Origin: an uncultured Shimia sp.
Lineage (GTDB): Bacteria > Pseudomonadota > Alphaproteobacteria > Rhodobacterales > Rhodobacteraceae
Assembly (NCBI RefSeq): GCF_947498095.1
Contig: NZ_CANMJE010000003.1
Span: 62,001 to 126,000, forward strand
DNA length: 64,000 nt
Direction: 5' to 3'
Part shown: positions 22,489 through 36,862 of the stretch, in pieces
How the letters are laid out: every line of letters begins with the position of its first letter
Position numbering within the stretch: the stretch's first letter is position 1
Made by a program: the position numbers and the translations under genes
Notes under the pieces: generated by a model
The model's input: only the letters and a program-made list of their open reading frames with translations
What the model was told of the DNA's origin: nothing
Databases searched by the model: none

Positions 22489-22828
22489 CGTTGTTTTCCA
22501 ATGTTTGTTTGACCGCAGTTTGGCAGAATATGGTTAGGAAATATAGAGGAAATTTGCATACTAGACGACAAAGTATTCGGCTATTCTATGGGTGAAATAG
22601 AGAAATTCTGGCTCATGCAAATGTTTTTTAGTTGACTAGTATCCCAGTTTAACTAATCAATATGGCCATGAACGAACTTACGGCATTCGTTCGTGTTGGG
22701 AGGATTTAAAGTCACCGTTAGATGGGTTGGCAGGGATCGAGCACGATGGGCCGCAATGTTTCGGACGAGATTTTCGGCCAAAGAGGGCCGGAGGAAAACA
22801 AAACTTGAACCAAATCTGGGAGGATAGA
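22489..22828. promoter_or_regulatory. Divergent promoter region with candidate GntR operator
   Basis: This 340-base gap holds no gene. It separates the GntR/FCD regulator from dctP and should hold both promoters. A perfect 6-base inverted repeat, TTAGTT at 22628-22633 and AACTAA at 22651-22656, with 17 bases between, is a candidate operator but is longer than a classic FadR-type site. The dctP ribosome site GGGAGGATAG lies at its right end. Confidence 0.4.
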
Positions 22829-23812
22829 ATGTTCAATTTTTCACTTAAAACGATGGCCGTGTCGGCGATGCTTCTAAGCGGTGTGTCCATTGCGCAGGCT
22901 GATGTAACTTTGCGCGGTGCCAGCATGTTTGATGAAGAGCATGCATTCACCAAGACCCTACGCGAATTCGAACGTCTGGTCGCCGACAACTACGATGGCG
23001 ACGTAAGCTTTGACTTGCGCCTGAACGGTGAGCTGGGCGTTGAATCCGACTATGTGACCTACCTGAACCAGGGCGTCGCGGTCGATTACACAATCCTCGC
23101 ACCGTCCAACATGGCGGTTTTCTCAGAATCCATTCCTTTGATGGATATGCCCTTCCTGTTTCGTGACCTTGACCATTGGAACACAGTGCTGTCTTCGAAT
23201 GCGCTGAAGCCTTTGGAAGATGACTTGCGCGAAGCGGCTGGTATCGTGATTGTAGGCTATCATGGCGGCGGCGTGCGCAATCTGGCCTCGGCCAAGCCCA
23301 TCACCAACATGGATGAATTGTCCGGTCACCGCATGCGTGTGATGGGGGCTCCAATTCAGGCGCAAACCTTTGCCGCCGTTGGTGCGGCTCCGTCTGCCAT
23401 CGCCTATAACGAAGTCTATAACGCGATCCAGACTGGCGTCATTGCCGGGTTCGAAAACGAAGCCGCTTCGATCCAGAACCTGAAGTTCTACGAAGTCGCG
23501 CCACATATCTCGTTGACACAGCACACAATCACAGTTCGTCCGATCGTGATGTCGGCGAAAATCTTTGACGGTTTGCCAGAAGCCCTGCAGGCGGCCATCA
23601 TGACGGCCGGTGCCGAAGCCGGCGCCTTTGGTCGCGCGCTGGAAAGCGGTCAGGATGGTGAAAAACTGCAAGCCATGATCGATGCTGGGCAGATTGAAGT
23701 GCATGAGTTCGCGGGTCGCGAGAAAATGCTGGAAATGGTTCAGCCGGTGCAGGACGCTTATGCTGCAGAGCTGGGCGCAACCGAACTGCTCAACAACGTT
23801 CGCGGAATGTAA
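22829..23812 (+). CDS. dctP: TRAP transporter substrate-binding protein, DctP family
   Basis: A 327-residue periplasmic binding protein with a clear signal peptide of about 24 residues ending near IAQA. Family features are GELGVESDYVTYLNQGVAVD near residue 70, MRVMGAPIQAQTFAAVGAAP near residue 170 (the Arg here is where DctP proteins hold the substrate carboxylate) and YNAIQTGVIAGFENEAAS near residue 200. TRAP binding proteins of this type usually carry carboxylates, including sugar acids, which suits the downstream uronate genes. The ATG at 22829 follows GGGAGGATAG; the longer frame from 22727 would precede the signal peptide with 34 residues and is unlikely. First gene of the operon. Confidence 0.93.
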   Translation: MFNFSLKTMAVSAMLLSGVSIAQADVTLRGASMFDEEHAFTKTLREFERLVADNYDGDVSFDLRLNGELGVESDYVTYLNQGVAVDYTILAPSNMAVFSESIPLMDMPFLFRDLDHWNTVLSSNALKPLEDDLREAAGIVIVGYHGGGVRNLASAKPITNMDELSGHRMRVMGAPIQAQTFAAVGAAPSAIAYNEVYNAIQTGVIAGFENEAASIQNLKFYEVAPHISLTQHTITVRPIVMSAKIFDGLPEALQAAIMTAGAEAGAFGRALESGQDGEKLQAMIDAGQIEVHEFAGREKMLEMVQPVQDAYAAELGATELLNNVRGM

Positions 23813-23822
23813 TCTCCCTGTA

Positions 23823-23853
23823 GACGGGCGGTGAACTTTCTGATCCGCCCGTC
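23823..23853 (+). promoter_or_regulatory. Intercistronic hairpin after dctP
   Basis: GACGGGCGG (23823-23831) and CCGCCCGTC (23845-23853) form a perfect 9-base stem with a 13-base loop, 10 bases after the dctP stop and 50 bases before dctQ. Without a T run it is more likely to protect the dctP mRNA end, so that binding protein is made in excess over permease, than to stop transcription outright. Confidence 0.65.
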
Positions 23854-23906
23854 AACACAACGTTTGATGCGCCTCGCGCATCACATAACGACTAAGGGCA
23901 GAGCGC

Positions 23907-24401
23907 ATGCTTGGAATTCTTCTTAACCGGTTCTGTATTGGCCTGCGTGTCCTGCTTGGCCTGATGATGGGGCTTCTGGCGATACCGGTCGCAATGCAAG
24001 TAGTCTCACGCTACACCGGGTTGATCCCGACATTCCTTTGGACCGAAGAGTTGGCAACATTCTTGTTCGTATGGATTGTCATGATCGGGTCTGTGGTCGC
24101 GGTCTGGGACGGTACGCACTTTGATGTTCGCATTACCCCGGATGCCACGACGCCAGCCTTTCGTTTGCTGCAAAGGGGCATTGTCCACGTCGCCATCATG
24201 GTGTTCGGAGCGTTGTTTCTGTTCTACGGCATTGAATACGCAGAATTCGGCAGCAAGCAGCGGTCCGTGATGATGCGCGCAAACCTGATGATCACACATA
24301 TTTCTGTTCCAATCGCTGGCGGGCTTTGGCTGCTGCTTTCAGGCTATCGTTTGTCCCAAGACGTGGCCCAATTCCTTAACCGAGAAAGCCATTCGTCATG
24401 A
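23907..24401 (+). CDS. dctQ: TRAP transporter small permease subunit, DctQ family
   Basis: A 164-residue inner-membrane protein with four hydrophobic helices. QVVSRYTGLIPTFLWTEELA near residue 32 is the usual DctQ segment after helix 1, with TEELATFLFVWIV leading into helix 2. It partners DctP and DctM in a sodium-driven importer. Its last four bases overlap the dctM start (ATGA), so the two subunits are translationally coupled. Size and topology are normal for the family. Confidence 0.92.
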   Translation: MLGILLNRFCIGLRVLLGLMMGLLAIPVAMQVVSRYTGLIPTFLWTEELATFLFVWIVMIGSVVAVWDGTHFDVRITPDATTPAFRLLQRGIVHVAIMVFGALFLFYGIEYAEFGSKQRSVMMRANLMITHISVPIAGGLWLLLSGYRLSQDVAQFLNRESHSS

Positions 24402-25708
24402 TCCTGGATACCGCCACCGCCGCCATGATGCTGATCGCCGGATTTCTGGTTCTGATCTTCATCCGCATTCCGGTTGCCTTTGCGCTGGGCCTTGCGACCG
24501 TCCCGGTTGTTCTTCTTGAGCTACGACTGACGCCTTTCATCGTTCTTGACCGGATGTTCCAATCCTACAACTCGTTTATACTTTTGGCCGTGCCATTTTT
24601 TCTTCTGGCGGCAAATCTTATGAACTCTGGCAAAGTTACCGACCGTTTGATCGAGCTTGCCCGTGTGCTGACCGGGTGGATGCCGGGCGGCCTTGGCCAC
24701 GTGAACGTTGCTGTGTCGATGTTGTTCGCCGGTATTTCGGGGTCTTCAACGGCGGATGCAGCAGGTATTGGCAAGATCCTGATCCCGGCCATGCAGAAAG
24801 AGGGCTACGACACAAGATTTGCGGTCGCGATTACCGCGTGTTCGTCAGTGATGGGTGTTATCATCCCGCCGTCGATCCTGATGATCGTCTGGGGCGGTGT
24901 GATGCAGGTGTCTGTTGGCGCATTGTTCCTGGGCGGCGCGATCCCCGGCCTGTTGATCGGTCTGGCGTTGATGGCGACGGTCTATGGGTTTGCTAAAGCC
25001 CGCAACTATCCGGTGACGGCCACCCCGAACTGGGGCGAGTTCTGGGCTGCCTGGAAAGGCGCGGCTCTTGCACTGTTAACACCGGTCTTTGTGATTGGCG
25101 GCATTGTGGGTGGCCTGGTTACCCCAACAGAAAGCGCCATTATTGCTGCAGGTTACGCTCTGATCCTTGGGATGTTCGTTTACAAAACAGTGACGCCCAA
25201 AGATCTCGGCCACATCCTTTATGACACGGCGCGTTTTGCCGCGATTTCGCTATTTGCCATTGGCACGGCGTCCGCATTTGGCTGGCTTTTGTCTTTCTAT
25301 AATGCACCACGCCTTATTGTCAGTGTTTTGACCGCTTGGGAGTTTGGGCCCTTTGGCACCGCGCTGTTGATTGCACTGTTGTTTCTGCTGTTTGGCCTGT
25401 TTATCGATGCCATCCCGACAATCATCATTCTTGGCACAGTCCTGATGCCCGTGGCACAGGCGGGCGGCGTTGATCCGATTGCCTTTGCGATCATTGGTAT
25501 CGTCTCTCTGGCGTTCGGATTGGTGACGCCGCCTTATGGATTGTGCCTGTTAATCTCGGCTGCAATTGGGGGGCTGAACGTCGTGCAAGTTCTGCGCGAG
25601 GTGATCCTCATTCTTGCGCCAATGCTGGTGCTTCTCATCCTGATGGCAGCATTTCCCGAAATCATTCTGTGGCTCCCAAAAACGGTTATGCCGGGCGCGT
25701 TCCGATAA
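24398..25708 (+). CDS. dctM: TRAP transporter large permease subunit, DctM family
   Basis: A 436-residue inner-membrane protein with about 12 hydrophobic segments. It carries DctM hallmarks: IRIPVAFALGLATVPVVLLE near residue 22, NLMNSGKVTDRLIELARVLT near residue 70, VAVSMLFAGISGSSTADAAG near residue 105 and MGVIIPPSILMIVWG near residue 150. It forms the transport channel of the TRAP importer. It overlaps dctQ by four bases. The gap of about 95 bases to the SDR gene includes a possible internal start region, but the same-strand order suggests one operon. Confidence 0.94.
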   Translation: MILDTATAAMMLIAGFLVLIFIRIPVAFALGLATVPVVLLELRLTPFIVLDRMFQSYNSFILLAVPFFLLAANLMNSGKVTDRLIELARVLTGWMPGGLGHVNVAVSMLFAGISGSSTADAAGIGKILIPAMQKEGYDTRFAVAITACSSVMGVIIPPSILMIVWGGVMQVSVGALFLGGAIPGLLIGLALMATVYGFAKARNYPVTATPNWGEFWAAWKGAALALLTPVFVIGGIVGGLVTPTESAIIAAGYALILGMFVYKTVTPKDLGHILYDTARFAAISLFAIGTASAFGWLLSFYNAPRLIVSVLTAWEFGPFGTALLIALLFLLFGLFIDAIPTIIILGTVLMPVAQAGGVDPIAFAIIGIVSLAFGLVTPPYGLCLLISAAIGGLNVVQVLREVILILAPMLVLLILMAAFPEIILWLPKTVMPGAFR

Positions 25709-25803
25709 GCGCTGCGTACTAAAAGACGAACGTCAAAGGGCCAGTATGCAATGCAACCCTACGAAAATAGCAAAGCATGCGCTTTGCGGAAGAAAGGATC
25801 GAT

Positions 25804-26547
25804 ATGAAACTTGCAGGAAAAACAGCCATCGTGACCGGTGGCGGGCGCGACATTGGTCGTGCCGTCGCGGTCAAACTTGCCTCAGAAGGCGCGAATGTCG
25901 CGATCAACTATTTCTCAAGTTCAAAGGGCGCGGATGAAGCTGTCGCAGCGATTGAGGCCAACGGCGGCAAGGCGATTGCCGTACAGGGCGACCTCAACAA
26001 TCAAGCGGATGTTGATTCTTTGGTATCCCGCACGGTTGAGGCATTTGGCGGTGTCGACATTCTGGTCAACAATGCTGGCGGTTTGATCGCTCGCAAAACC
26101 ATTGCCGATATGTCCGTCGAACACTGGAATGCGGTGATGAGCCTTAATCTGACCAGCACATTCCTAATGACTCAGGCATGTCTGTCCAAGATGACATCCG
26201 GCGTGATCGTCAATCTCGCCAGCCAGGCTGGGCGCGACGGTGGTGGACCGGGTGCCGTGGCTTACGCGACCGCCAAAGGCGCCGTGATGACCATGACACG
26301 TGGACTGGCGAAAGAAGTGGGTCCCGACATTCGAGTCAACGCTCTGTGCCCCGGTATGATCGATACCGATTTTCACAACATCCACACGCCTGATGCCGGT
26401 CGCCGCGGCTTTGAAGCAAATGCGCCGCTGAAACGTCAAGGTCACGTGGATGACGCTGCCAACCTTGTGTTGTTCTTAGCGTGCGAGGACAGCGCCTTTA
26501 TCACAGGGGCCAACATTGATCTGAACGGTGGCATGCTGTTTTCCTAA
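25804..26547 (+). CDS. Short-chain dehydrogenase/reductase, likely sugar-acid oxidoreductase
   Basis: A 247-residue classical SDR that uses NAD(P)H. The cofactor loop is VTGGGRDIGRAVAV near residue 10, NNAGG near residue 88 is the structural motif, and the catalytic Tyr and Lys are in AYATAKGA near residue 155, with the Ser of NLASQAG about 13 residues earlier. NGGMLFS ends the protein as in many members. The ATG at 25804 follows AAAGGATCGAT. Placed between a TRAP importer and uronate enzymes, it may reduce fructuronate-like or keto-deoxy sugar acids (the UxuB- or KduD-type step). That role is inferred from position only. Confidence 0.88.
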   Translation: MKLAGKTAIVTGGGRDIGRAVAVKLASEGANVAINYFSSSKGADEAVAAIEANGGKAIAVQGDLNNQADVDSLVSRTVEAFGGVDILVNNAGGLIARKTIADMSVEHWNAVMSLNLTSTFLMTQACLSKMTSGVIVNLASQAGRDGGGPGAVAYATAKGAVMTMTRGLAKEVGPDIRVNALCPGMIDTDFHNIHTPDAGRRGFEANAPLKRQGHVDDAANLVLFLACEDSAFITGANIDLNGGMLFS

Positions 26548-26568
26548 AGCGCAGGGGAGGGGCTGCCC

Positions 26569-26880
26569 GTGTCTAAACTCCCGACTATCTCTGCCGGGGA
26601 CGGTGTCGCCCGGCCGACGCTGTCAGACTACTCTGACCCTATGGTCGTGGCTTTTTGGTTTCTGGCAAGTAGAGCAATTGGTGCAATGCACTGCCATCCG
26701 CATGTACGGACCAACTATGTTGAAGGCGGGCTACAACGCTTTAAACTTGAAGATCACGAGCAAGAGTTCGGTCACGTCGGCAGTTTTGTCATTGCTTCAG
26801 GCCACAGTAATGTCTGCAAAGGTATGGAACCCGGTAAAATGAACGACTGTTTCTCACTCCGCCGCGACGAAATTCGGTGA
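26569..26880 (+). CDS. Cupin-domain protein, KdgF-like but with altered metal-ligand region
   Basis: A 103-residue single-domain cupin starting at the GTG at 26569 after AGGGGAGGGG. The first motif is IGAMHCHPHVRTNYVEGG, where family members usually have HSHPHEQ. The second is FVIASGHSNVCKGMEPGKM followed by DCFSLRRDE, where members usually have VIPSNVEHG and D-x-F-x-P-x-RED. KdgF cupins open 4,5-unsaturated uronates to a linear keto acid, which suits the operon. Here the usual Gln is an Arg and the usual last His is displaced by two positions, so metal binding may be changed or lost. Its stop overlaps the next start by four bases, which supports a real, translated gene. Confidence 0.65.
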   Translation: MSKLPTISAGDGVARPTLSDYSDPMVVAFWFLASRAIGAMHCHPHVRTNYVEGGLQRFKLEDHEQEFGHVGSFVIASGHSNVCKGMEPGKMNDCFSLRRDEIR

Positions 26881-27809
26881 CCGGCATGCGGTTTCTGGGA
26901 ATCGGAGAATGCATGGCAGAATTGGCCCCATCTGAACACTCAGGAGAGTTTCGGCTGGGGTTTGCTGGTGATAGCTTTAACACGACCTGGTATCTTGCGC
27001 AGATCGCCAAGGATATCGACATCAGTTATCTGACCGCAGTCGGTGATGATGCGATTTCGCAGGATATGCGAACTTTCATGAAAGACAGCGGAATTTGCGA
27101 CGGGCATGTACAGGTCGTTGCGGGTCAAACAGTTGGGTTGTACCTCATCCACCTTAACAATGGTGAGCGCAGCTTTTCCTATTGGCGCAGCAGTTCTGCG
27201 GCCAAGCAGCTTGCGGCGGACCAGATCGCGCTCGGGCGGGCCGTTGCGGACACGGATCTGATCTATTTTTCGGGAATTACCCTCGCGATACTGGATAAAC
27301 AGTCACGCGAGGTTCTGTTCGATGCATTACACCGCGCGCGCGCGTCCGGCAAAACGGTTGCCTTTGACACAAACCTGCGGCCGCAGCTTTGGGCAACCCC
27401 GCAGGAGATGACCGACACGATCATTAAGGCGGCTGCACACTCTGATATCGTTTTGCCATCGTACGACGACGAAGCTGTATGGTTTGGCGACCGCGACTCA
27501 ATTGCGACGTTGGATCGCTATGCCGAGATAGGCGTCGACCAGATCGTTGTGAAAAACAGTGCCCAGCCGGTGGTTTTTCAAAAATCCGGGCAACGCGGCG
27601 AGGTCGACGTTGAGCCCGTAAGCCAAATTGTCGACACCACGGCCGCCGGTGACAGTTTCAATGCCGGGGTTTTGGCAAGTATTCTAAGACAGGGTGATCT
27701 GGAAACGGGAATACGGCACGGATGCCAGCTCGCAGGTCATGTTGTTCGGCACAAAGGCGCGCTCGTCCCAGTTGGCAGTGACATTGGCGCGGACGGGGCT
27801 GAGTCATGA
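26877..27809 (+). CDS. kdgK: PfkB-family sugar kinase, 2-keto-3-deoxygluconate kinase-like
   Basis: A 310-residue ribokinase-fold kinase. MRFLGIGECMAELAPSEHSG opens the protein in the way KDG kinases do (G-E-x-M-x-E-L). FAGDSFNTTWYLA follows near residue 28, and the anion-hole signature DTTAAGDSFNAGVLAS, with the catalytic Asp, lies near residue 253. It would phosphorylate 2-keto-3-deoxygluconate with ATP, the step after mannonate dehydratase. The GTG at 26877 overlaps the cupin stop; an ATG at 26886 is also possible. The next gene, uxuA, begins 28 bases downstream. Confidence 0.83.
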   Translation: MTGMRFLGIGECMAELAPSEHSGEFRLGFAGDSFNTTWYLAQIAKDIDISYLTAVGDDAISQDMRTFMKDSGICDGHVQVVAGQTVGLYLIHLNNGERSFSYWRSSSAAKQLAADQIALGRAVADTDLIYFSGITLAILDKQSREVLFDALHRARASGKTVAFDTNLRPQLWATPQEMTDTIIKAAAHSDIVLPSYDDEAVWFGDRDSIATLDRYAEIGVDQIVVKNSAQPVVFQKSGQRGEVDVEPVSQIVDTTAAGDSFNAGVLASILRQGDLETGIRHGCQLAGHVVRHKGALVPVGSDIGADGAES

Positions 27810-27837
27810 CCTTCTATGTTCAAGAAGGTACAAACCG

Positions 27838-29034
27838 ATGAAGCAGACTTGGCGCTGGTTTGGCCCTTCTGACGCAATCTCCATTGGAGAAATCAGGCAA
27901 ACCGGTGCAACGGGCATTGTTTCAGCTTTGCATCATGTGCCAACTGGCGAGGTTTGGTCTGTCGATGCGATCAAAGAGCGGCAACAGCTGATTGAACGGC
28001 CTCAAGGGGTGCCGTCTGGTCTGACTTGGGATGTGGTCGAGAGCTTGCCGGTGTCCGAGGTGTTGAAATCGCAGACCGGACCAGTGGGGCAACACCTAGC
28101 AAGCTACAAAGAAAGCCTGCGAAACTTGGCCAAATGCGGCATTCACACGGTCTGTTACAACTTCATGCCTGTGCTGGATTGGACCCGTACAGACTTGAGC
28201 TATCCACTGCAGCATGGCGGGCATGCGATGCGGTTTGATCTTGTGGATTTTGTCGCGTTCGATTGCTTCATCTTAAGCCGCAGAGGAGCGGAGCAAGACT
28301 ATTCACCAGAAATTTTGGAAACGGCGAAAGCCCGGTTTTCAGACCTGAATGATGCGGGCCGGCAGGCGTTGTCGAACAACATCGTTGCAGGCCTTCCAGG
28401 TGCCAACGACAATTGGTCTCTTGAGGACGTGAGGCAAAATCTCGCCGCCTATGAGGGCATGACGCCCGAGACTCTGCGCTCTAACCTCATTGATTTCTTG
28501 TCCGAAGTGGTGCCTTTGGCCGAAGAGCTTGGCATCCGGGTTTGTTGCCATCCCGATGATCCACCCTTTCCATTGCTTGGCCTGCCAAGGGTCATGTCAT
28601 CACAAGCAAACTATGCCACGGTGCTGGACGCTGTAGATAGCCCGGCAAACGGCGCGACGCTCTGCACCGGATCTCTGGGGGTTGCGATTGGGTTTGATCC
28701 GGTGTCCTTCATCACCCAACTTGGCCACAAGGTTCATTTCGTACATCTTCGCAATACGGTGCGAGACGGTTCAAGTGACGGAAATCGCCATGGTTTTGTT
28801 GAGGCAGAACACTTGGTTGGGGACACAGATATGGTCGCGACAATTCGTGCCTTGTTGGCCGAGGAACAGCGACGCAGAGAAACCGGACGCACAGATCATG
28901 AAATCCCAATGCGCCCAGACCATGGCCACGCTCTTTTGAGCGACCTCGCGGGCACGACACAACCTGGATACCCGCTGATAGGCCGCTTGCGCGGCCTCGC
29001 AGAACTTCGCGGCGTCATGCTGGGGTGCAGCTAG
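27838..29034 (+). CDS. uxuA: Mannonate dehydratase
   Basis: A 398-residue enzyme, close to the 394 of E. coli UxuA, that dehydrates D-mannonate to 2-keto-3-deoxygluconate. Family segments are WRWFGPSDAISIGEIRQTGA at the start, IVSALHHVPTGEVW, and CGIHTVCYNFMPVLDWTRTD near residue 100. The metal-site region is VCCHPDDPPFPLLGLPRVMS near residue 238, followed by FVHLRNT and a C-terminal PDHGHALL. The ATG at 27838 follows AAGAAGG. It is the last gene of the operon. Fructuronate reductase (UxuB), uronate isomerase (UxaC) and KDPG aldolase are not present by name, so they must lie elsewhere or be replaced, perhaps by the SDR. Confidence 0.95.
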   Translation: MKQTWRWFGPSDAISIGEIRQTGATGIVSALHHVPTGEVWSVDAIKERQQLIERPQGVPSGLTWDVVESLPVSEVLKSQTGPVGQHLASYKESLRNLAKCGIHTVCYNFMPVLDWTRTDLSYPLQHGGHAMRFDLVDFVAFDCFILSRRGAEQDYSPEILETAKARFSDLNDAGRQALSNNIVAGLPGANDNWSLEDVRQNLAAYEGMTPETLRSNLIDFLSEVVPLAEELGIRVCCHPDDPPFPLLGLPRVMSSQANYATVLDAVDSPANGATLCTGSLGVAIGFDPVSFITQLGHKVHFVHLRNTVRDGSSDGNRHGFVEAEHLVGDTDMVATIRALLAEEQRRRETGRTDHEIPMRPDHGHALLSDLAGTTQPGYPLIGRLRGLAELRGVMLGCS

Positions 29035-29089
29035 TCGATCATAAGGTGCCACACCCTCGGTCGTGGCAGATGTTTGGGACTCAAATCAC

Positions 29090-29282
29090 ACCTGGTTGAG
29101 ACAATGCTCGTGGGTCGTTTGTATCAATTGGCGTTCAACATTCCGAAGAAAGGCCGGAAATGTGACGTAAAGCATCACCGAAAAGAGGTATGCTTCAGGA
29201 CCGATTTTGAATTGCCGAAAAGCGGAACGTTTTGCCATCAGGGTAAGCTATGAAACAGCCCCGCTCTCCGCAACCGAATTTC
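29090..29282 (-). pseudogene. 5' fragment of an IS6-family element, reading leftward
   Basis: The minus strand from 29238 reads AKRSAFRQFKIGPEAYLFSV, then MLYVTFPAFLRNVER, the start of an IS6-type transposase, and then degenerates. Upstream of its start, at 29240-29282, is GGGGCTGTTTCATAG and neighbouring bases, which match in inverted orientation the bases at 36955-37004. Those shared bases are taken as the element end. Only about 50 codons remain. The rest of the gap between uxuA and the sulfatase (29035-29448) shows no gene. Confidence 0.7.
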
Positions 29283-29448
29283 TTCTGTCATCACCTTGCC
29301 ACGAGCCCGCCCGCCTCTGTTTGCACACCTGCTAACGTCTATTTCGGGCAGGGCCGTGCCATTCTGAGAAAACCAAAATGGATCAAACAAAAAGGCCGTC
29401 GAAACGCGACGCTTGCTGTTCTAGTTGATTGTGGAGCGTGCCCCGCTG

Positions 29449-30918
29449 TCAAGCCGAAAACTCAGGAACCCAGTCCTCGCCCCACGCGTCTTGCCACAGC
29501 CTTTGATAGGTCACGTTGGATTTTGCACTGCCGCTTTGCCACAGGTCATAATCTGGCGCGGCATAGGCATCAAAAAACGACGTTACGCGGTTGCGCAGGT
29601 CGTCAATGATCTGGGAAAGCTCCGGGCGGTCAATCAGATTGACCTTTTCCATTGGATCGTCGGTCAGGTGGTAAAGCTCGTCCTGCATCGGATAGGAGGC
29701 CGCACCCTGGAACCGCATGGCAAAAAGCCATTCGTGTGTCCGGATCGCACGGGTTTCTTCCTGCTCGTAAAAGATCGCATCCGCCTCTTCCAGATATTCG
29801 CCTCTCAGGGCAGGGCCAAGATCGCGCGCGCTGCTGGCAAGGCTCGGGCGTGCGTCGGGGGAGCCAACCAAGGCGGCCAAGGTCGGAAAAAGATCGATCT
29901 GACTGACCAGCGCGTTCGACACGCGGCCACTTGTAACCGGCCCTCCACTCAGGATCAGTGGAATATTGTAGGACGCACGGTGCGCGCTGGCGGGGAAAGC
30001 AGCCGCGCCGTGGCCCCATATACCGTTGTGCCCCAGCGAGAATCCGTGATCCGAGGTGTAGATTACGATGGTGTTCTCATCGAGACCCAGCCTTTCGAGC
30101 GTCGCAAGTATCCGTCCGACACCATCGTCGATCAGGCTGACCTGAGCAAAATAGTTCCGCAGCGATTCAACATTGTTCGGCAACAAAAGCGGCCCCTTGA
30201 ATTGCTCACGCACACCACCTTCGGCAACCCGCAGGCCAAACCGTTCCAGAACGTCGCTGGACAGGCCCTCTCTTGGGATCGAGTGCATATCCGCATCGTC
30301 GTAAAGATCCGCAAACGCCATGTCTGGGCGTCCTTTGATGGCCGGCCAATGCCCGTAGGGCCCGTTGTAGGGCACGAAGGCAAAAAACGGATCCTCTTCC
30401 TCGGCGCGATGTTCCAGATACTCGATCGTCTTGTCGGTAAAGAAGTCGACAGTATGCCCTTCAAAGCGATAGCGCTCTTCCTGATCAATCACATCGTTGC
30501 CGTAAAAACTGGTGGTATGCCCGTGCGGAAATGTGACCCAGTGATCAAAGGCCAGTTGCGGTACAAAAGGGACGCCTAGATGAAATTTACCAATCATCGC
30601 AGTTGCATACCCGGCCTGCTTGATGACCGTTGGCAGGTTGTTGAACTCACCTATCGCCGACCAGTTTTGCGGCCAATGGTCGATCAGCCGGTCATCCAGC
30701 CAGTTGTGAATACCATGTTGGCTGGGCATCAATCCGGTCAACACTGAGGCCCGGCAAGGTGAGCACATCGCGTTCACGCAATAGGCATTCTCAAACCGCA
30801 CCCCGCGATCTGCCATTTGGTCAAGATGCGGGGTTTGCACCTCGTTATTGCCATAGCAGCCAAGTAAGTCGGCGGGCTGGTTGTCTGACATAAAAAGGAT
30901 GATGTTTGGGCGCTTCAT
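29449..30918 (-). CDS. Type I sulfatase (formylglycine-dependent), no signal peptide
   Basis: A 489-residue alkaline-phosphatase-superfamily sulfatase. RPNIILFMSDNQPADLLGCY at the start gives the metal-site Asp. The active-site signature is CSPCRASVLTG near residue 52 (C-x-P-x-R), whose Cys must be oxidised to formylglycine by a maturase not seen in this window. YTSDHGFSLGHNGIWGHG near residue 290 holds the second metal-site Asp-His pair. It starts directly with the catalytic fold and has no signal peptide, so it is expected in the cytoplasm. It would remove sulfate from an imported substrate; the substrate class cannot be read. It is convergent with uxuA and divergent from the MarR gene. Confidence 0.92.
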   Translation of the reverse strand: MKRPNIILFMSDNQPADLLGCYGNNEVQTPHLDQMADRGVRFENAYCVNAMCSPCRASVLTGLMPSQHGIHNWLDDRLIDHWPQNWSAIGEFNNLPTVIKQAGYATAMIGKFHLGVPFVPQLAFDHWVTFPHGHTTSFYGNDVIDQEERYRFEGHTVDFFTDKTIEYLEHRAEEEDPFFAFVPYNGPYGHWPAIKGRPDMAFADLYDDADMHSIPREGLSSDVLERFGLRVAEGGVREQFKGPLLLPNNVESLRNYFAQVSLIDDGVGRILATLERLGLDENTIVIYTSDHGFSLGHNGIWGHGAAAFPASAHRASYNIPLILSGGPVTSGRVSNALVSQIDLFPTLAALVGSPDARPSLASSARDLGPALRGEYLEEADAIFYEQEETRAIRTHEWLFAMRFQGAASYPMQDELYHLTDDPMEKVNLIDRPELSQIIDDLRNRVTSFFDAYAAPDYDLWQSGSAKSNVTYQRLWQDAWGEDWVPEFSA

Positions 30919-30935
30919 GGGCAGTCCTCAATTTA

Positions 30936-31033
30936 GTCTGGCAGGATATCCGAGCGGTTGCTTTCGGCGGCGGCCTTGCGGTCGGAACACGGCCTGCAGC
31001 CCCTCCGCCAACGATGACATCGTCAAAAGCCAT
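30936..31033 (-). pseudogene. N-terminal remnant of a GMC-type FAD oxidoreductase
   Basis: The minus strand from the ATG at 31033 reads MAFDDVIVGGGAAGRVPTAR, very like the FAD-binding start of GMC (choline dehydrogenase-like) oxidoreductases, where VIVGGGxAGCVLAxRL is usual. After about 20 codons the similarity is lost, and the frame runs to the sulfatase start region with no further match. It is a short piece, so chance resemblance cannot be excluded, but the G-x-G-x-x-G placement directly after a methionine is convincing. Confidence 0.45.
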
Positions 31034-31202
31034 TGTCCTCATACCTGAGTCCTAACCCGCTTTCATTCCGGCATGCATCCACGATCTCGGCGCTGCACCA
31101 TGCCTTATATCGACCCGGCGCACCACTTATGTTGCTCTTGCCATATATTGCATTTGCCAATATAGTGATTAACAAGTCAAGGGATTTTGTGGGGGTGAAA
31201 CG

Positions 31203-31730
31203 TTGCACGGAGCATTGATACCACCCGAGCAGGTGGATGATTTCATCATCCTGCGGGCGCGGAGATTCACCAGTTCAACCCGGCGTTCTTTGACGCAGGA
31301 CGTTTTGCAGAAGGAAAATCTGCCCGTTCTCGAATGGCAGTTGTTGTTTTCGATTGCGCGCTTCGGAAGTTGCCACGTTGCCTTTGTCACAAAAAACACC
31401 TCGATCGATCCAGCGCATGGCAGCCGCGCTGCAAGCGCGCTGGAGAAAAAGGGGCTGATTTCGCGTTGCGAAGACCCAGAGAACAAGCGCCGCAAACTGA
31501 TGTCGCTGACCCCACTTGGTGTCGAAACAGTAAAGCGGATTTGGCCAAAAGCCCGACAGGTCACGGCGAGTTTTACTGACCGGTTAAGCCCGGACGAGTT
31601 TACTGAACTGAAACGGCTGTTGGATTTGATCAATGGCAGTGCAGGCCCTTTGGCCGTCAAGGTCGATCCGCGCAACCGACAGGATAGTGCACTAATTGAG
31701 ATGGGAGAAGTTGCCGCTCAGGCTGGATGA
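31203..31730 (+). CDS. MarR-family transcriptional regulator
   Basis: A 175-residue winged-helix regulator of the MarR type. The recognition region is PVLEWQLLFSIARFGSCHVA, then DPAHGSRAASALEKKGLISR, and the wing is CEDPENKRRKLMSLTPLG. A C-terminal helix gives dimer contacts. The only start giving the full domain is the TTG at 31203, which has a poor ribosome site, so expression may be low. It lies 80 bases before the TAXI binding-protein gene on the same strand and about 285 bases from the divergent sulfatase, so it is the likely regulator of the sulfatase and TAXI transporter genes. Confidence 0.85.
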   Translation: MHGALIPPEQVDDFIILRARRFTSSTRRSLTQDVLQKENLPVLEWQLLFSIARFGSCHVAFVTKNTSIDPAHGSRAASALEKKGLISRCEDPENKRRKLMSLTPLGVETVKRIWPKARQVTASFTDRLSPDEFTELKRLLDLINGSAGPLAVKVDPRNRQDSALIEMGEVAAQAG

Positions 31731-31811
31731 TCGGGTGCAGCACTTTTTGTCCGAACCCGGCCGTGGAAGGGCGCGTTACTAGAAAACAAAGGTAAAATCA
31801 GGGAGGAAACG

Positions 31812-32858
31812 ATGAAACCTATGAAATTGATCGCCGCTGCGGTCGCTACAATGACGATGGTGTCTGGTGCAGTTGCGCAGACCAATCTGACCGCCGAAAC
31901 GGCAAGCCCGGGTGGTGCCACGCATCTTTCCCTTGCGCATTTGACGGAAGTGGCGGGCACCAGCGGTGTTGCCAACATTCAACTGGCAGATGGTCAGACA
32001 TTGACCAATTCGATCCAGAACGTTGCTGAAGGCAAAACTGACATCGCCGGAACGCCTTACATTCTGCCTTTCCTGATGAGCAGGGGCGTTGGCCCTTACG
32101 GATCTTTAGGCAAGGAAAAGGGCGCAGAGCTTGCGAGTAACCTCCGGGCAATCAACCCCTTTGTCCTCGGGATCTTCTTTCTCTTTGCCTATGACTCCAA
32201 AGGCATTGGCGGCTGGGACGACCTGAAAGGCCGCAAGATCTACAATGGTCCGCCCCGTGGTGGTGCTCTGACCAACGCCCGCAGCATGATCCAGATCGTG
32301 GCGGGCCTGAAGGATGGTGAAGACTACGAAGGCATGCAGATTAACTGGGGGCAGGGTGCAACGCTGATCAGCAGTGGTGAACCCGACGCCGTTGTGCTTC
32401 CGGAACTGTTCCCTAGCCCTCGTCTGACCATCCCCAGCGCGGCTGGCAAAATGACCGGCTGGTCGATGCCAATTGAGGCCTACGAAAGCGAAGCGATGCA
32501 GAAGTACATGAAAGCCCCGGGCAGCGCGCCCTGGACCAGCAGTGTTGCAAGCATTCAGGACGTCATGGGTGAGGATTGGTCTTTCGTTTCTGAGGACGAC
32601 ACGTTCCGCGCCTTTGCAACGATTGGTGGCAATGTTGTGAACAAGAATATGGACGATGCACTCGTCTATGATCTGGTGAATGTTTACATCGCGTCACTCA
32701 AAGATCTGATGGGCAAGGCGCCTTATGGCGAAACCGTTGGCTACGATTTCCCGATGCAGGGGATGTGTGGCGCGAACCCGATCCAGTACCACCCAGCCGC
32801 AGCGCGCGCGTGGCGTGAAGCTGGTTTCGAGATTGATGATTGTGCGGTCGCACAATAA
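31812..32858 (+). CDS. TAXI-family TRAP transporter solute-binding protein
   Basis: A 348-residue periplasmic binding protein with a signal peptide of about 22 residues ending in GAVAQ. The pattern fits TAXI proteins rather than DctP: QLADGQTLTNSIQNVAEGKT near residue 58, GIFFLFAYDSKGIGGWDDLK near residue 120 and GRKIYNGPPRGGALTNARSM near residue 140. A C-terminal Cys pair may form a disulfide (MCGANPIQYHPAAARAW, then DDCAVAQ). TAXI systems take up carboxylates and other small anions; the ligand here is unknown but may be a sulfated sugar acid, given the two sulfatase genes beside it. GGGAGGAAACG precedes the ATG. Confidence 0.85.
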   Translation: MKPMKLIAAAVATMTMVSGAVAQTNLTAETASPGGATHLSLAHLTEVAGTSGVANIQLADGQTLTNSIQNVAEGKTDIAGTPYILPFLMSRGVGPYGSLGKEKGAELASNLRAINPFVLGIFFLFAYDSKGIGGWDDLKGRKIYNGPPRGGALTNARSMIQIVAGLKDGEDYEGMQINWGQGATLISSGEPDAVVLPELFPSPRLTIPSAAGKMTGWSMPIEAYESEAMQKYMKAPGSAPWTSSVASIQDVMGEDWSFVSEDDTFRAFATIGGNVVNKNMDDALVYDLVNVYIASLKDLMGKAPYGETVGYDFPMQGMCGANPIQYHPAAARAWREAGFEIDDCAVAQ

Positions 32859-32881
32859 CCCAACTCACGTCTGAAAAACAT

Positions 32882-32907
32882 GAGCGTCGCCTGATCTGGC
32901 GGCGCTC
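32882..32907 (+). promoter_or_regulatory. Intercistronic hairpin after the TAXI binding protein
   Basis: GAGCGTCGCC (32882-32891) and GGCGGCGCTC (32898-32907) pair over 10 bases with one G-T pair around a 6-base loop. It lies between the binding-protein and permease genes. As at the dctP gene there is no T run, so a role in raising binding-protein output over permease is likely. Confidence 0.65.
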
Positions 32908-32937
32908 AATCGGGCAATTTCAAGGATAGACAGAACA

Positions 32938-35274
32938 GTGGTCGATATAACCAACCAAACCTTGAACAAAGCGCTCTTTCCGAACTGGGCTGTTTACATC
33001 CTGTCGCTGGTTTTTGTCGCCATGGGCGTCATTAACAGCACGCCGGTCATTCCCGGCTGGTCCGAGATGTGGCAGGGGTTAACCGGGAACGAAAACTTCA
33101 AAGTTCGCAGTTTTTCGACCGAATGGTTCTATCCCATTGTGTTCTTTGTCATGATGCTGGTCGTGGCGCTAAAACACTCCATGTGGCGCGCTTGGCAAGG
33201 CACTTCCCGCGCCTGGTTTGGTGCCTTTATGGACATCGCGCTGGTCGTAGCGGCGGCCACCATTTCTTTTACGTATCTTATCGAAATCGACAGTGTCTGT
33301 CTGATTGATGCCCTGAACGGGGATCGTGCGCGGATCATGGCCGAAACGCTGCAGGCAGAAATCGAGTTTGCCGAAACGATGGGTTTGCCGGCGCCAGACA
33401 CCGTGGAAGACCCCAAATGCGTCAACACGACGGGCGTTTGGCTGGTTGCCATCATGGGAGCGTCCATGATGGTGTTCTTGGGATACAACATCAAAGTCTG
33501 GGGACTGCCGCTGGTGGCCGTCGCGATTTTGATTGCGCTCTACACCTTTGGAACTGTGTTGGTCTGGTATTTCCACGGGCCCGAAGACATCAACAAATAC
33601 CTGATGACCAAGCTTGGCGGTGAGCCGCGCTCCTTCCTTGATGGGGTGCCCAACGTGCATGACGCGTTGGTCAATAACGCGTCGGGCATTCTCGGGCGCT
33701 TCATGAACGTGATCATGAACATGGTCTTCCCCTATATCATTCTGGGCGCGCTTTTCGGGCAATCCGCCGGGGGCCAGACCCTGATCAAACTGGCGTTCCG
33801 CTGGACACGCCATCTGCGCGGCGGACCGGCCCACGCAGCGATTGTCAGCTCGGCCATGTTTGGTACGATTTCCGGTGGACCCGTGGTTAATGTTCTCTCG
33901 ACCGGAGTTCTCACCATCCCGATGATGATCAAGCGCGGCTTTTCTAAGGTCTTTGCCGGGGGTGTCGAGGCCGCGGCCTCGTCCGGCGGGTCGATCATGC
34001 CGCCGGTCATGGGGGTCGCCGCCTTTATTCTCGCCGCAATGACAGGCGTGCCATATCGCGATGTCATCATCGCAGCGGCCTTGCCTGCAGTGGCCTATTT
34101 TGCCTGCCTGTTCCTCAGCGCCTCTTTCCAGTCCCGAAAGCAGGGCATCGAAGCCTTTGGTGAACTGACCGAGGATATGCGGATCGACCGCGAAGACGTC
34201 TTGCACCTGATGCAGATTTTCCTGCCGATACTCTTGATCCTGATCCTGCTGCTGACCCCAAAAGACATGGTGGGCTGCGGCTTCATGGCCTCGCTTCTGG
34301 GCGCCGAGGCAGTATTTCAGAACGACCGCTGCGTTGTCTCGTCAATGCCATGGATCCTGCAGATATTCCAAAATGCGGCGGGTGATGCCGGGGCGACCGG
34401 CTGGTGGGCTGCGGCGCTGGTCATGGTCCTCCTGTTCCTTGACAAAGAGTTCCGCGCCAAACCGCGCAAGGTTTTGGATGCGCTTGCCGAGTCCGGGATC
34501 ACCATTTCAACCTTGTACCTGATGTTGCTGGCGGTGACAGTGATCGACGTCTGCCTGAACTTCACAGGCCTGTCCAAATTCGTGGCCATCGATGTGTTGC
34601 GCTTTTTGCTGTCGCTTGATCTGGCCGGAGATGGGTCGGTGCTGTTCCAGTTTATTGCGCTGGCGATCACGATGCTGCTGGCCGTGCTGTTGGGCATGGG
34701 GATGCCGGCGGTTCCGGCCTATATCAACGTCGCCCTTTTGATGGGGCCTTTGCTGGCCGGGCTCGGCATTGCCACGTTTACGGCGCATATGTTCATCTTC
34801 TACTTCGCCATTGCATCCGCCATTACCCCGCCCGTCGCGCTGGCTGCATTTGCGGCGTCGACCATTACCAAGGCCGAGCCGATGGCGACCGGTTTCAGCG
34901 CTGTGCGCTCGGGCATTGTGATGTTCGCAATTCCCTTTGTCTTTGCTTTCTACCCCGAGATCCTGCTGGTTGATCAGGCGTTGGTTGATCCTTCCAGCCC
35001 CTCCGGCGCGCCCCTGCCAGGCTATGAGAATGGCGTCCAGTTCAGCGCACTTTTGTGGCTTTTGGCACGCCTTGTTCTGGTGCTCTATCTGGTGGCAAGC
35101 GCTTTGGCCACGCACGATGCCCGACCGCTCAGCGCGGCATGGATCGCCATTCGGCTTGCGACCGCAGTGGCCATCCTCATGCGCCCGGAGGTCATCCAGT
35201 TTGCCGCACTCGCCTTTGCCGCAGCCTTTCTGGCCTGGCACCATTTTGGCGCTGGTCGGGCCAAACCCGCATAA
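32938..35274 (+). CDS. TRAP transporter fused permease (DctQ-DctM type)
   Basis: A 778-residue inner-membrane protein. The first 230 residues form four or more helices of a DctQ-like part; the remainder is a DctM-like channel with about a dozen helices. Channel motifs include AHAAIVSSAMFGTISGGPVV near residue 298, FAGGVEAAASSGGSIMPPVM near residue 340 and LLGMGMPAVPAYINVALLMG near residue 580. Fusion of the two permeases is the usual state in TAXI systems. A notable feature is a hydrophilic stretch with several Cys between helices 3 and 4. The GTG at 32938 follows AAGGATAGACAGAACA. It pairs with the TAXI binding protein and is followed after 19 bases by a sulfatase. Confidence 0.9.
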   Translation: MVDITNQTLNKALFPNWAVYILSLVFVAMGVINSTPVIPGWSEMWQGLTGNENFKVRSFSTEWFYPIVFFVMMLVVALKHSMWRAWQGTSRAWFGAFMDIALVVAAATISFTYLIEIDSVCLIDALNGDRARIMAETLQAEIEFAETMGLPAPDTVEDPKCVNTTGVWLVAIMGASMMVFLGYNIKVWGLPLVAVAILIALYTFGTVLVWYFHGPEDINKYLMTKLGGEPRSFLDGVPNVHDALVNNASGILGRFMNVIMNMVFPYIILGALFGQSAGGQTLIKLAFRWTRHLRGGPAHAAIVSSAMFGTISGGPVVNVLSTGVLTIPMMIKRGFSKVFAGGVEAAASSGGSIMPPVMGVAAFILAAMTGVPYRDVIIAAALPAVAYFACLFLSASFQSRKQGIEAFGELTEDMRIDREDVLHLMQIFLPILLILILLLTPKDMVGCGFMASLLGAEAVFQNDRCVVSSMPWILQIFQNAAGDAGATGWWAAALVMVLLFLDKEFRAKPRKVLDALAESGITISTLYLMLLAVTVIDVCLNFTGLSKFVAIDVLRFLLSLDLAGDGSVLFQFIALAITMLLAVLLGMGMPAVPAYINVALLMGPLLAGLGIATFTAHMFIFYFAIASAITPPVALAAFAASTITKAEPMATGFSAVRSGIVMFAIPFVFAFYPEILLVDQALVDPSSPSGAPLPGYENGVQFSALLWLLARLVLVLYLVASALATHDARPLSAAWIAIRLATAVAILMRPEVIQFAALAFAAAFLAWHHFGAGRAKPA

Positions 35275-35293
35275 TGGAAGACGCTGATTTCGC

Positions 35294-36862
35294 ATGACCA
35301 AACGCCCCAATTTTCTGTTTCTGATTACCGATCAACAACGCGCGGACTGGCTTGGGTGTTATGGACATCCGGTGTTGAAGACGCCTCACATCGATTCCAT
35401 TGCGGCACGCGGCACACGGTTTGACAACTTTCACACGGCGTCGCCTGTTTGCATGCCGAACCGGGCATCGCTGTTAACGGGGCGGTATCCCAGCCTGCAT
35501 GGGCTGCGCTATAACGGCTGTGTCTTGCCGGAAAACGCCAACACCTTTGTCGATGTACTGGCGCAATCAGGCTATCACACTGCGGCTATCGGCAAGAGCC
35601 ACCTGCAACCTTTCACCGCCATGCCGCCAATGGGTAAATCGGTTGAGGACATTGCCGCCTCGCCAGAGGCTTGGAAGACCGACAGGCCTGCGCATTACCA
35701 AGAAGAACCTGAACAGTATAAGGGCGATGAACGTTACCAGATCAATACGCCTTATTACGGCTACCAGCACGTTGACATGGTGACCTCTCACGGTGATCGC
35801 TGTGGCGGGCACTACCAGCAGTGGTTCCGCGAGGCCGCCTCGGACTGGGAGGCGCTGCATGATCCTGCCAACGAGCTGGCGCACAACTACTCTTGCCCGC
35901 AAGCTTACCGCACACCCATCCCCGAGGACCTGTATCCCACCGGGTACATCCGGGATCGCGCCATTGACTACATCACGTCGCGTGCCGATCAGGACGCGCC
36001 CTTTTTTGCCTTCGTCAGTTTCCCCGATCCGCACCACCCGTTTAATCCACCGGGGAAATACTGGGACATGTACAGCCCCGACGAATTTGAGATTTCGCTG
36101 CCCTTTGACGCGCATAAGAACCCCACGCCCCCTATGAAATGGCTGCATGACCAGTGGAAAGGGGTGGGCGACGGCGAACAGGCGACCCCACAAACGGCTA
36201 TGATGCTGGATGATCAACAGCTGAAGGAAGCCATGGCGCTTTCTGCGGGCATGATGGCCTTTATCGACGATGCGGTCGGCGACATCCTCGCGGCGCTTGA
36301 AGAGAGCGGGCAGATGGAAAACACGGTCATCTGCTACAATGCCGATCACGGAGACTACCTGGGCGATTTCAACATGATTTTGAAAGGTGCCTTGCCGTTC
36401 CGCAGCATCACACGTGTGCCCTTTATCTGGTCCGATCCGGATCATCGCGCGGCAACCAGTGCAGATGCGCTATGCTCCACCGTTGATCTGGCTGCGACCA
36501 TTCTGGATCGCGCCGGGTTGGAACCTTTCAACGGTAATCAGGGGCAAAGCTTTCTGCCCGCCACCCAAGGCGCAGACGGCCCCCGCAGCGAGGCGTTGAT
36601 CGAATACAATGATGGCGGCAACCGTCTTGGGTTTGAAGAACCTGCCCGGGTTCGCTCGCTGATCACGGCCCGGTGGCGCTATACGATCTACCGCGATCAG
36701 ACATGGGGCGAGCTATACGATCTGGTCAATGACCCGGAGGAGACAGAAAACCTCTGGGACAGCCCCGACCATCAGCAAGTCCGGGCACAGATGTCGGAGC
36801 GGCTGGTTCATCACCTGATTGCACAAATGGATGAAAGCCCACAGTCAGACAGGCTTGCGTGA
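35294..36862 (+). CDS. Second type I sulfatase, no signal peptide
   Basis: A 522-residue sulfatase. RPNFLFLITDQQRADWLGCY opens the fold with the first metal-site Asp. The active-site motif is CMPNRASLLTGRYPSLHGLR near residue 54 (C-x-P-x-R). YNADHGDYLGDFNMILKGAL near residue 350 carries the later Asp-His-Gly pair and the substrate-side lysine. Like the first sulfatase it has no signal peptide, so it is probably cytoplasmic and acts after import. The two proteins are related only at the level of the family, suggesting two different sulfate positions or substrates. The 19-base gap from the permease indicates one operon. Its stop overlaps the start of a truncated amidohydrolase. Confidence 0.92.
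   Translation: MTKRPNFLFLITDQQRADWLGCYGHPVLKTPHIDSIAARGTRFDNFHTASPVCMPNRASLLTGRYPSLHGLRYNGCVLPENANTFVDVLAQSGYHTAAIGKSHLQPFTAMPPMGKSVEDIAASPEAWKTDRPAHYQEEPEQYKGDERYQINTPYYGYQHVDMVTSHGDRCGGHYQQWFREAASDWEALHDPANELAHNYSCPQAYRTPIPEDLYPTGYIRDRAIDYITSRADQDAPFFAFVSFPDPHHPFNPPGKYWDMYSPDEFEISLPFDAHKNPTPPMKWLHDQWKGVGDGEQATPQTAMMLDDQQLKEAMALSAGMMAFIDDAVGDILAALEESGQMENTVICYNADHGDYLGDFNMILKGALPFRSITRVPFIWSDPDHRAATSADALCSTVDLAATILDRAGLEPFNGNQGQSFLPATQGADGPRSEALIEYNDGGNRLGFEEPARVRSLITARWRYTIYRDQTWGELYDLVNDPEETENLWDSPDHQQVRAQMSERLVHHLIAQMDESPQSDRLA

Follow-up and report, generated by a model that had tools for sequence, protein, structure and literature searches.

Side by side but apparently independent: a putative hexuronate operon and a TAXI-sulfatase cassette in an uncultured Shimia genome

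Do two import-and-degradation modules that adjoin each other in the genome of an uncultured Shimia sp. form a single route for sulfated uronates, or are they independent neighbours? The question arises from a stretch of 64,000 nucleotides (contig NZ_CANMJE010000003.1, positions 62,001 to 126,000; hereafter the window), in which a DctPQM importer with uronate enzymes (module A) lies next to a TAXI-type TRAP importer with two sulfatases, Sulf1 and Sulf2 (module B). The first-pass annotation had proposed that the TAXI importer takes up sulfated uronate mono- or oligosaccharides, that Sulf1 and Sulf2 desulfate them and that module A degrades the uronate. Its gene positions are right, and the ORF listing and profile searches uphold most of its family calls, that of the cupin being corrected below. 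Our analysis favours, with a probability of roughly 0.7, two independent and separately regulated units placed side by side without functional link, of which module B would import a sulfate ester. The four alternatives weighed against this reading address different modules and do not rule each other out.

Module A consists of the following features, among which the divergent GntR regulator was absent from the initial gene list:

21808..22488, minus strand: GntR-family (FCD) regulator (PF00392 and PF07729), divergent from dctP
22556..22564, plus strand: putative GntR operator, ATACTAG half, here GCATACTAG (place hand-counted on the alignment)
22632..22644, plus strand: putative GntR operator, second half, TTGACTAGTATCC
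22829..23812, plus strand: DctP, TRAP solute-binding protein (PF03480)
23907..24401, plus strand: DctQ, small TRAP membrane subunit (PF04290)
24398..25708, plus strand: DctM, large TRAP membrane subunit (PF06808, 338 bits)
25807..26547, plus strand: SDR oxidoreductase, proposed uronate (mannuronate) reductase (PF13561/PF00106)
26569..26880, plus strand: degenerate KdgF-like cupin (GTG start, 103 aa), two of four metal ligands replaced
26883..27809, plus strand: KDG-kinase-like PfkB kinase (PF00294; NF052444 253 bits, cut-off 400)
27838..29034, plus strand: UxuA, D-mannonate dehydratase (TIGR00695 461 bits, cut-off 199.55)

The starts of DctP, the SDR, the kinase and UxuA are chosen inner start codons, the mechanical ORFs opening slightly earlier. 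DctP belongs to the uronate clade, being identical at 227 of 303 aligned residues (75%) to PDB 4nx1/4ovp, whose ligands we take to be mannuronate and taluronate; on this similarity, D-mannuronate or D-taluronate is its likely ligand. Together with UxuA, whose earlier identification as mannonate dehydratase is borne out by its score, this supports the view that module A serves uronate use. The kinase is a PfkB-family member as annotated, and is called KdgK-like here because it stays under the KdgK cut-off. No uronate isomerase UxaC (PF02614) was detected in the genome (99.99% complete), and the SDR, whose best PDB sequence is 4yqy (“Putative Dehydrogenase”, 318 bits), is therefore proposed to turn D-mannuronate straight into D-mannonate for UxuA. 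The substrate taken up by DctPQM would thus be a free hexuronate, with D-mannuronate as the likeliest candidate. The SDR would reduce the aldehyde of this sugar directly to D-mannonate; UxuA would dehydrate the latter to KDG, and the kinase would form KDPG, to be split by a KDPG aldolase encoded elsewhere in the genome (one PF01081 match, 223.6 bits). According to the available text of PMC6011931, Sphingomonas A1 has an SDR that converts aldonates, e.g. D-mannonate, to uronates by oxidation at C6. A UxuB-like step may also be considered, given one mannitol-dehydrogenase-family gene elsewhere in the genome.

The cupin had been described as carrying KdgF-like motifs; the relationship holds, weakly, but the motifs are not intact. 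The profile search gave no Pfam match for it, and its PDB matches are weak (a “Cupin” chain at E 0.012, KdgF chains at E 0.04). Compared with the cupins of homologous operons (L138, L139, L141, L146), it has Arg at the Gln ligand and Asn at the last His ligand of what are presumably two His, Gln and His coordinating the metal, and GHVG where GPGD stands. This bears on a somewhat doubtful alternative, in which module A would handle an unsaturated uronate or DEH from alginate, with KdgF opening the unsaturated ring, the SDR reducing DEH to KDG, the kinase forming KDPG and UxuA serving a side stream. The available text of PMC6353982 gives DEH reduction to KDG as the standard route of alginate breakdown, the cupins near homologous genes in L138, L139 and L146 are intact, and one Hepar_II_III_C-domain protein is encoded elsewhere in the genome; the loss of two metal ligands in the window's cupin argues the other way, as does L134, where the SDR and UxuA are present and the cupin and kinase were not found. 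Free D-mannuronate is retained as the most likely substrate.

With its 75% identical binding protein and its clustered TRAP genes, SDR, kinase and mannonate dehydratase, module A resembles the DctP-type TRAP uronate importers associated with uxuA/kdgK operons, from which its degenerate cupin sets it apart; it is an ordinary uronate operon, for sugar acids of the alginate type. As no UxaC was found in the genome, its first step is probably not that of the isomerase pathway. In the NS5 group, TRAP transporters adjoin uronate isomerase and mannonate dehydratase, as reported in the available text of PMC9122927. Although of lesser weight than module B, module A points to a mannuronate reductase as a direct way into the UxuA pathway in the absence of UxaC. 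The SDR accompanies DctPQM in all six closest dctP loci, of which L134 alone has uxuA and the other five lack it; among 21 DctP loci an SDR of at least 60% identity is found in only 8, UxuA in 4 and KdgK in 3.

The GntR-FCD gene is likewise kept in the six closest dctP loci (L134-L139). In the five aligned intergenic regions, ATACTAGA is invariant in the first half-site and the 14 bases GTTGACTAGTATCC in the second, the exact second-half site occurring only once in the window; the pair is a candidate operator for this regulator.

Module B converges on module A, uxuA and the Sulf1 gene being separated by 414 bases, and comprises:

29449..30918, minus strand: Sulf1, S1-type sulfatase (PF00884; CSPCR at residue 52)
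31138..31152, plus strand: putative MarR operator TTGCCATATATTGCA, exact in 7/9 aligned regions
31203..31730, plus strand: MarR-family regulator (PF01047; TTG start uncertain)
31812..32858, plus strand: TAXI-type TRAP solute-binding protein (PF16868)
32938..35274, plus strand: fused TRAP permease of the TAXI importer (TIGR02123 335.6 bits, cut-off 320.65)
35294..36862, plus strand: Sulf2, S1-type sulfatase (PF00884; CMPNR at residue 53), 19 bases past the permease gene

The TAXI-type importer, the MarR regulator and the two sulfatases of the earlier annotation are all confirmed by these profiles. The binding protein scores below the cut-off of the TAXI sequence model TIGR02122 (43.1 vs 84.35) and is just 14-17% identical to TAXI binding proteins of solved structure. 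Its structure model (mean pLDDT 90.7) nevertheless finds TAXI binding proteins as best PDB folds, including 1us4, 8s4j, 8u79, 9ibo and 4ddd (TM-scores 0.61-0.67 by query length), and with PF16868 and the adjacent fused permease gene this identifies a TAXI-TRAP system. Sulf1 is assigned to module B because the TAXI cassettes of relatives include it: its clustered relatives occur in 13 of 77 TAXI loci, a count used in place of an ortholog tally that partial hits to other sulfatases had swollen; at 45% identity or more the figure is 15/77. Sulf2 has matches of at least 45% identity in 34/77.

The putative MarR operator differs by a single mismatch in the two remaining regions (L014 and L019) and overlaps a promoter-like TTGCCA-17-TATAGT (31138-31166), such promoter-like matches being in no excess here (2 found vs 1.6 expected in shuffles). 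The MarR protein, by which this site may be recognised, has BilQ (37.8 bits) and HpaR (35.8 bits) as best NCBIfam matches, each far below cut-off. The operator-like motifs of the two modules are distinct, and scans allowing 2 and 3 mismatches, which weaker sites would escape and beyond which the first GntR half-site varies, located no copy of either in the vicinity of the other module.

Conserved co-occurrence of both modules, the mark of a sulfated-uronate locus, was seen in none of the 77 TAXI loci, 56 of which have at least 9 kb of upstream sequence, and in none of the 21 DctP loci, a set from which three weaker loci (G208, G082, G026) of 23 outside the present genome were left out. GntR, DctQ, the cupin, KdgK and UxuA had no match at E 1e-10 in the TAXI loci, where DctP had a single one at 27% identity; conversely, the TAXI protein, its permease and Sulf2 were absent from the DctP loci at E 1e-5. 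No match to Sulf1 or Sulf2 was found in 26 further UxuA loci of relatives, with flanks of ~1.5 kb. UxuA and a close TAXI relative occur together in 3 of 80 sampled genomes, the present one counted, and on one contig only in the present genome. The single pathway drawn by the first-pass annotation is contradicted by these neighbourhoods, which that annotation had itself named as a refuting test, and by the separate operator-like motifs, and we reject it as highly improbable, all the more as module A has an importer of its own, despite the physical adjacency of the modules, the seemingly cytoplasmic nature of both sulfatases, the sugar substrates of the closest PDB sequences of Sulf1 and the handling of uronates by module A.

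The association of module B with sulfatases is by contrast tight, in support of import plus desulfation: a sulfatase is encoded between -4 and +8 kb relative to the TAXI gene in 60/77 loci and in 41 of the 47 with full flanks (tblastn), vs 1/51 in a control stretch from -10 to -5 kb upstream (5 kb vs a tested interval of 12 kb) and 1/21 in the DctP loci. The 61 query sulfatases behind this count were themselves taken from these TAXI loci, and identical queries were run on the controls. The count replaced an ORF-based one of 35/47, because the latter missed sulfatases hidden under longer antisense ORFs (e.g. L033, L036, L038). The sulfatase is co-directional with and adjacent to the TAXI gene in 51/77 loci, and its subfamily varies by TAXI subclade. 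No sulfatase was detected in six of the full-flank loci, three of which (L022, L031, L057) encode TAXI proteins 74-77% identical to that of module B. The tight link and the variety of sulfatase subfamilies at this position make sulfate esters the probable cargo of the importer, with cleavage taking place in the cytoplasm.

Both sulfatases have the S1-type domain with C-x-P-x-R, the formylglycine motif, and no export signal was seen in either by eye, which is consistent with a cytoplasmic location. The genome encodes an anSME-type radical-SAM maturase (TIGR03942 494 bits, cut-off 349), which speaks against a lack of sulfatase maturation despite the absence of any FGE (PF03781) match in the genome. 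A small organic sulfate ester would thus be taken up intact by the TAXI importer, Sulf1 and Sulf2, presumably matured by the anSME-type enzyme to the formylglycine form, would strip the sulfate in the cytoplasm, and the carbon skeleton would enter pathways encoded elsewhere.

Cytoplasmic choline-sulfatase (BetC) systems likewise import an intact sulfate ester and cleave it inside. Module B differs from them by its TAXI-type importer and by its sulfatases, Sulf1 and Sulf2 scoring 162.9 and 194.3 bits against the choline-sulfatase cut-off of 433.45 (TIGR03417); neither reaches any NCBIfam cut-off shown, that of arylsulfatase included. The known TAXI-type importers, of glutamate (VcGluP and TtGluBP), alpha-ketoglutarate (Proteus) and orthophthalate (Azoarcus), share the binding-protein fold and the single fused permease, and module B is distinguished from them by its tight sulfatase linkage. 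TAXI importers of established substrate are few according to PMC11574862, whose introduction names no sulfate ester among TAXI ligands and whose available text has no word starting with “sulf”. No description of a TAXI- or TRAP-sulfatase pairing was found in the literature searched, and the available texts of PMC4103551 and PMC9122927 do not link TAXI to a sulfatase (“taxi” being “taxid” in the latter). Module B is a widespread, little-studied cassette, conserved in many marine lineages, the substrate class of which is directly testable.

What kind of ester is imported is hinted at by other neighbours. In L017, HpaD, HpaE and HpaH of the homoprotocatechuate (hpa) meta-cleavage cluster score above their cut-offs upstream of MarR-TAXI, and hpa relatives adjoin the cassette on the opposite strand in L012 and L020, i.e. 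in 3/77 TAXI loci overall; an amidohydrolase (Amidohydro_3 relatives) is present in 13/77 vs 0/21 DctP loci. These neighbours hint at sulfates of the aryl or amide type rather than at uronates, and we tentatively regard an aryl or aryl-amide sulfate as the likeliest class. Within the window, hpa and amidohydrolase genes are both absent, and the genome's HpaD is on another contig. Near this hpaD, no TAXI match was found, and a sulfatase ~14 kb off looks secreted and is 29.6% identical to Sulf1, so a second module-B-like cassette there was discarded; an amidohydrolase remnant beside module B was dismissed as well, without any match in the window and with the genome's best one, 31% identical, lying elsewhere. 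The data could, still tentatively, point to a TAXI-TRAP clade of marine Alpha- and Gammaproteobacteria specialised in organic sulfate esters, of which aryl or N-acyl-arylamine (tyramine- or dopamine-like) sulfates are the probable kind, and which would be taken up whole and desulfated in the cytoplasm. If so, this clade would constitute a route for dissolved organic sulfur bypassing extracellular sulfatases, small dissolved sulfate esters could be used without secreted enzymes, and the TAXI family would gain a new substrate class.

Two other substrate classes have to be weighed. The best PDB sequences of Sulf1 are sugar sulfatases (N-acetylglucosamine-6-sulfatase and mucin-desulfating sulfatase), which, with the amidohydrolase of the 13 loci acting as a deacetylase, would suit import of a sulfated sugar or sugar acid, e.g. 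a hexose or N-acetylhexosamine sulfate, unrelated to module A. This is unlikely, as the closest matches of Sulf2 are 4upi/4upl (“sulfatase family protein”) and choline-sulfatase, with phosphonate monoester hydrolases matching too, and none of the 21 family-searched neighbour proteins, hand-chosen among 1100 called neighbour ORFs and leaving most neighbours unannotated, is a sugar kinase or glycosidase. Phosphonate monoester hydrolases likewise use the formylglycine motif, and Sulf2 matches PehA (178 bits) and structures of these enzymes, so that Sulf1 and Sulf2 might in practice be members of this superfamily that hydrolyse phosphonate or phosphate esters, with TAXI carrying such an ester; we consider this very unlikely, both proteins being far under the PehA cut-off of 900 and chains named sulfatase (176 bits) outscoring phosphonate monoester hydrolase (105 bits) as matches of Sulf2.

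The TAXI-sulfatase cassette of module B is a real genomic association, and its pairing with the uronate operon (module A) looks incidental. According to ORF coordinates, the two modules are laid out as follows.

Window: uncultured Shimia sp. genome G000, contig C3, 62001-126000
Module A, minus strand: GntR regulator gene
Module A, plus strand, in order: dctP-dctQ-dctM-SDR-cupin-kinase-uxuA (cupin at 26569-26880)
Module B, minus strand: sulf1, followed by 284 bases
Module B, plus strand, in order: marR-TAXI-permease-sulf2

The plus-strand genes of module A are spaced by 2 to 98 bases, except that dctQ and dctM overlap by 4 bases, these lengths depending on inner start codons that we picked for some of its genes. 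In module B, the successive gaps from marR to sulf2 are of 81, 79 and 19 bases. The uxuA and sulf1 genes are convergent, with 414 bases between them, and the two modules thus cannot share a transcript in the ordinary way. A sulfotransferase-domain protein (PF17784) is encoded at 18796-19443, some 2.4 kb ahead of the GntR gene, and a giant protein of 2417 aa, which combines 19 putative Ig (He_PIG) stretches with an autotransporter beta-domain at its C-terminus, at 40195-47448.

The TAXI binding protein was scanned against one genome per species (84,980 species), yielding 77 loci whose titles name, among others, Rhodobacteraceae, SAR116, Rhizobiaceae, Geminicoccus and Granulosicoccaceae, the most similar proteins coming from records named as roseobacters (Tropicibacter, Falsiruegeria). 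Being seeded by six peptide patterns, the scan favours close relatives, and genomes very near that of the window may be missing. A permease match was present in 72 of the 77 loci. Using 61 query sulfatases drawn from these same loci, tblastn detected a sulfatase in the -4/+8 kb zone around the TAXI gene for 60/77 loci; of the 47 loci whose flanks are complete, 41 had one, and none was detected in L022, L031, L042, L043, L056 and L057. The sulfatase was adjacent and co-directional in 51/77. As controls with the same queries, the stretch from -10 to -5 kb (5 kb compared with 12) held a sulfatase in 1/51 TAXI loci, and loci fetched around DctP relatives held one anywhere in 1/21. Sulf2 relatives accompany close TAXI relatives (31 of 41 at an identity of at least 65%), and distant TAXI classes often occur with other sulfatases only (11/20 and 9/14). 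Such an exchange of sulfatases next to an unchanging transporter suggests a cargo that has to be desulfated. No description of the cassette was found in the open-access literature searched. Among the 25 genus genomes examined, G000 included, G000 alone encodes a TAXI protein above 50% identity; module B is therefore an accessory element in this genome, perhaps acquired by lateral transfer. The AlphaFold model of the TAXI protein (32 sequences) has a mean pLDDT of 90.7. Compared with PDB folds, it is closest to TAXI binding proteins of 14-17% identity, which lead the matches that follow by a wide margin. The alignment conserves 17 charged, polar or aromatic residues without exception, including R149, R157 and R204.

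The first-pass annotation had suggested that both modules together serve the use of sulfated uronates or sulfated sugar acids, a proposal that the neighbourhood search contradicts: neither UxuA nor KdgK was matched in any of the 77 TAXI loci, nor were GntR, DctQ or the cupin (E 1e-10). DctP was matched once at this threshold (L076, 27%), DctM 12 times and SDR 11 times, none of the latter two reaching 45% identity. Upstream sequence of at least 9 kb, the side on which module A lies in the window, was available in 56/77 loci. TAXI, permease and Sulf2 were absent from the 21 DctP loci, which gave a single Sulf1 match (26%) and two MarR matches (25%). Among 80 genomes, G000 included, UxuA was found in 24 and TAXI (at least 47% identity over most of its length) in seven; both occurred in G000, G017 and G038, and on one contig in G000 alone. 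Intergenic alignments revealed putative GntR operator halves, GTTGACTAGTATCC and ATACTAGA, which do not vary among five module A loci, and a putative MarR operator, TTGCCATATATTGCA, exact in 7/9 module B loci and with one mismatch in the other two. Scanning the window gave one extra site of the first motif (52157, two mismatches) and one of the second (50671, three mismatches), both within shuffle expectation and neither near the other module. These separate motifs, devoid of cross-sites, indicate that the modules are probably regulated apart.

Taken by itself, module A is a standard uronate operon apart from a minor peculiarity, and its earlier assignment to uronate catabolism is upheld. DctP matches PDB 4nx1/4ovp (E 6e-150; 227/303 aligned residues identical), presumably a Sulfitobacter protein with taluronate and mannuronate bound, and UxuA scores far above its family cut-off. 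G000 also encodes a KDPG aldolase and, on a different contig from the window, one protein with a mannitol-dehydrogenase C-terminal domain, the family to which UxuB belongs. A profile search found no UxaC in this genome (4.08 Mb, 51 contigs, 99.99% complete).

Among 295 genomes of the family, 24 including G000 match DctP at E 1e-60 or better, and the 21 DctP loci represent 20 of the 23 others plus the congener G013. The six closest (L134-L139, DctP 84-96%) all carry GntR and SDR, whereas UxuA occurs in L134 alone, KdgK in L139 alone and a cupin in L138 and L139. The SDR is hence the most faithful enzyme partner of DctPQM within this close group. L146 and L148 combine GntR, SDR, KdgK and UxuA with DctPQM, L146 having the cupin too. 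Over all 21 loci, SDR (at least 60% identity) was found in eight, UxuA in four and KdgK in three, so that more distant importers keep other company. The SDR probably acts first in the pathway. D-mannitol is C2-symmetric, and reduction of the D-mannuronate aldehyde therefore yields D-mannonate, the UxuA substrate, directly; this established stereochemistry would apply to the module A SDR if it catalyses that reduction. Such a direct step would render UxaC unnecessary. A Sphingomonas A1 SDR oxidises aldonates, including D-mannonate, at C6 into uronates, the reverse of the step proposed here (PMC6011931).

The cupin had been described as KdgF-like, which holds for its relatives in L138, L139 and L146, where H-x-H, Q, H and D are retained at KdgF-like positions, but not fully for the window copy, in which R replaces Q, N replaces the last H and GHVG replaces GPGD. 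With two of the four metal ligands replaced, this copy has probably either lost its function as a metal cupin or taken on another role; the gene is possibly decaying, and the surrounding genes look intact.

Regarding the ester carried by module B, HpaD, HpaE and HpaH score over their cut-offs in L017, upstream of marR-TAXI-permease-sulf2 on the same strand, together with an HpaG-like protein under its cut-off. Relatives of all four lie downstream of the cassette in L012 and L020, mostly on the opposite strand, and L026 contains just an HpaH relative, near the locus end. An Amidohydro_3 relative occurs in 13/77 TAXI loci versus 0/21 DctP loci. A histone-deacetylase-family protein is encoded beside the permease gene in L027 (Pfam-checked), with relatives in L022 and L060; L024 contains an amidase and L018 a peptidase S58. 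Relatives of FAD monooxygenases (7), GMC oxidoreductases (7) and P450 (5), many of them distant, are also present among these TAXI neighbours, and single FAD, GMC and HpaE-like matches appear in DctP loci too. Because 21 analyst-chosen ORFs of the 1100 called were given family searches, these neighbours are a hint rather than a census, and they hint at aryl or aryl-amide sulfates as cargo. Against aryl sulfates, the best PDB sequences for Sulf1 are sugar sulfatases; those for Sulf2 are 4upi/4upl, choline-sulfatase and others. HpaD of G000 lies on another contig and none was found within the 64-kb window.

PF00884 matches 22 places in G000, corresponding to roughly 20 sulfatase genes. The profile search gave no FGE match and a single anSME-type radical-SAM enzyme over cut-off, on which the maturation of all these sulfatases would thus rest. 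Roseobacters are largely aerobic. An FGE-type maturase gene is located inside the TAXI-sulfatase locus L035 (15232-16326), with relatives in L008 and L021.
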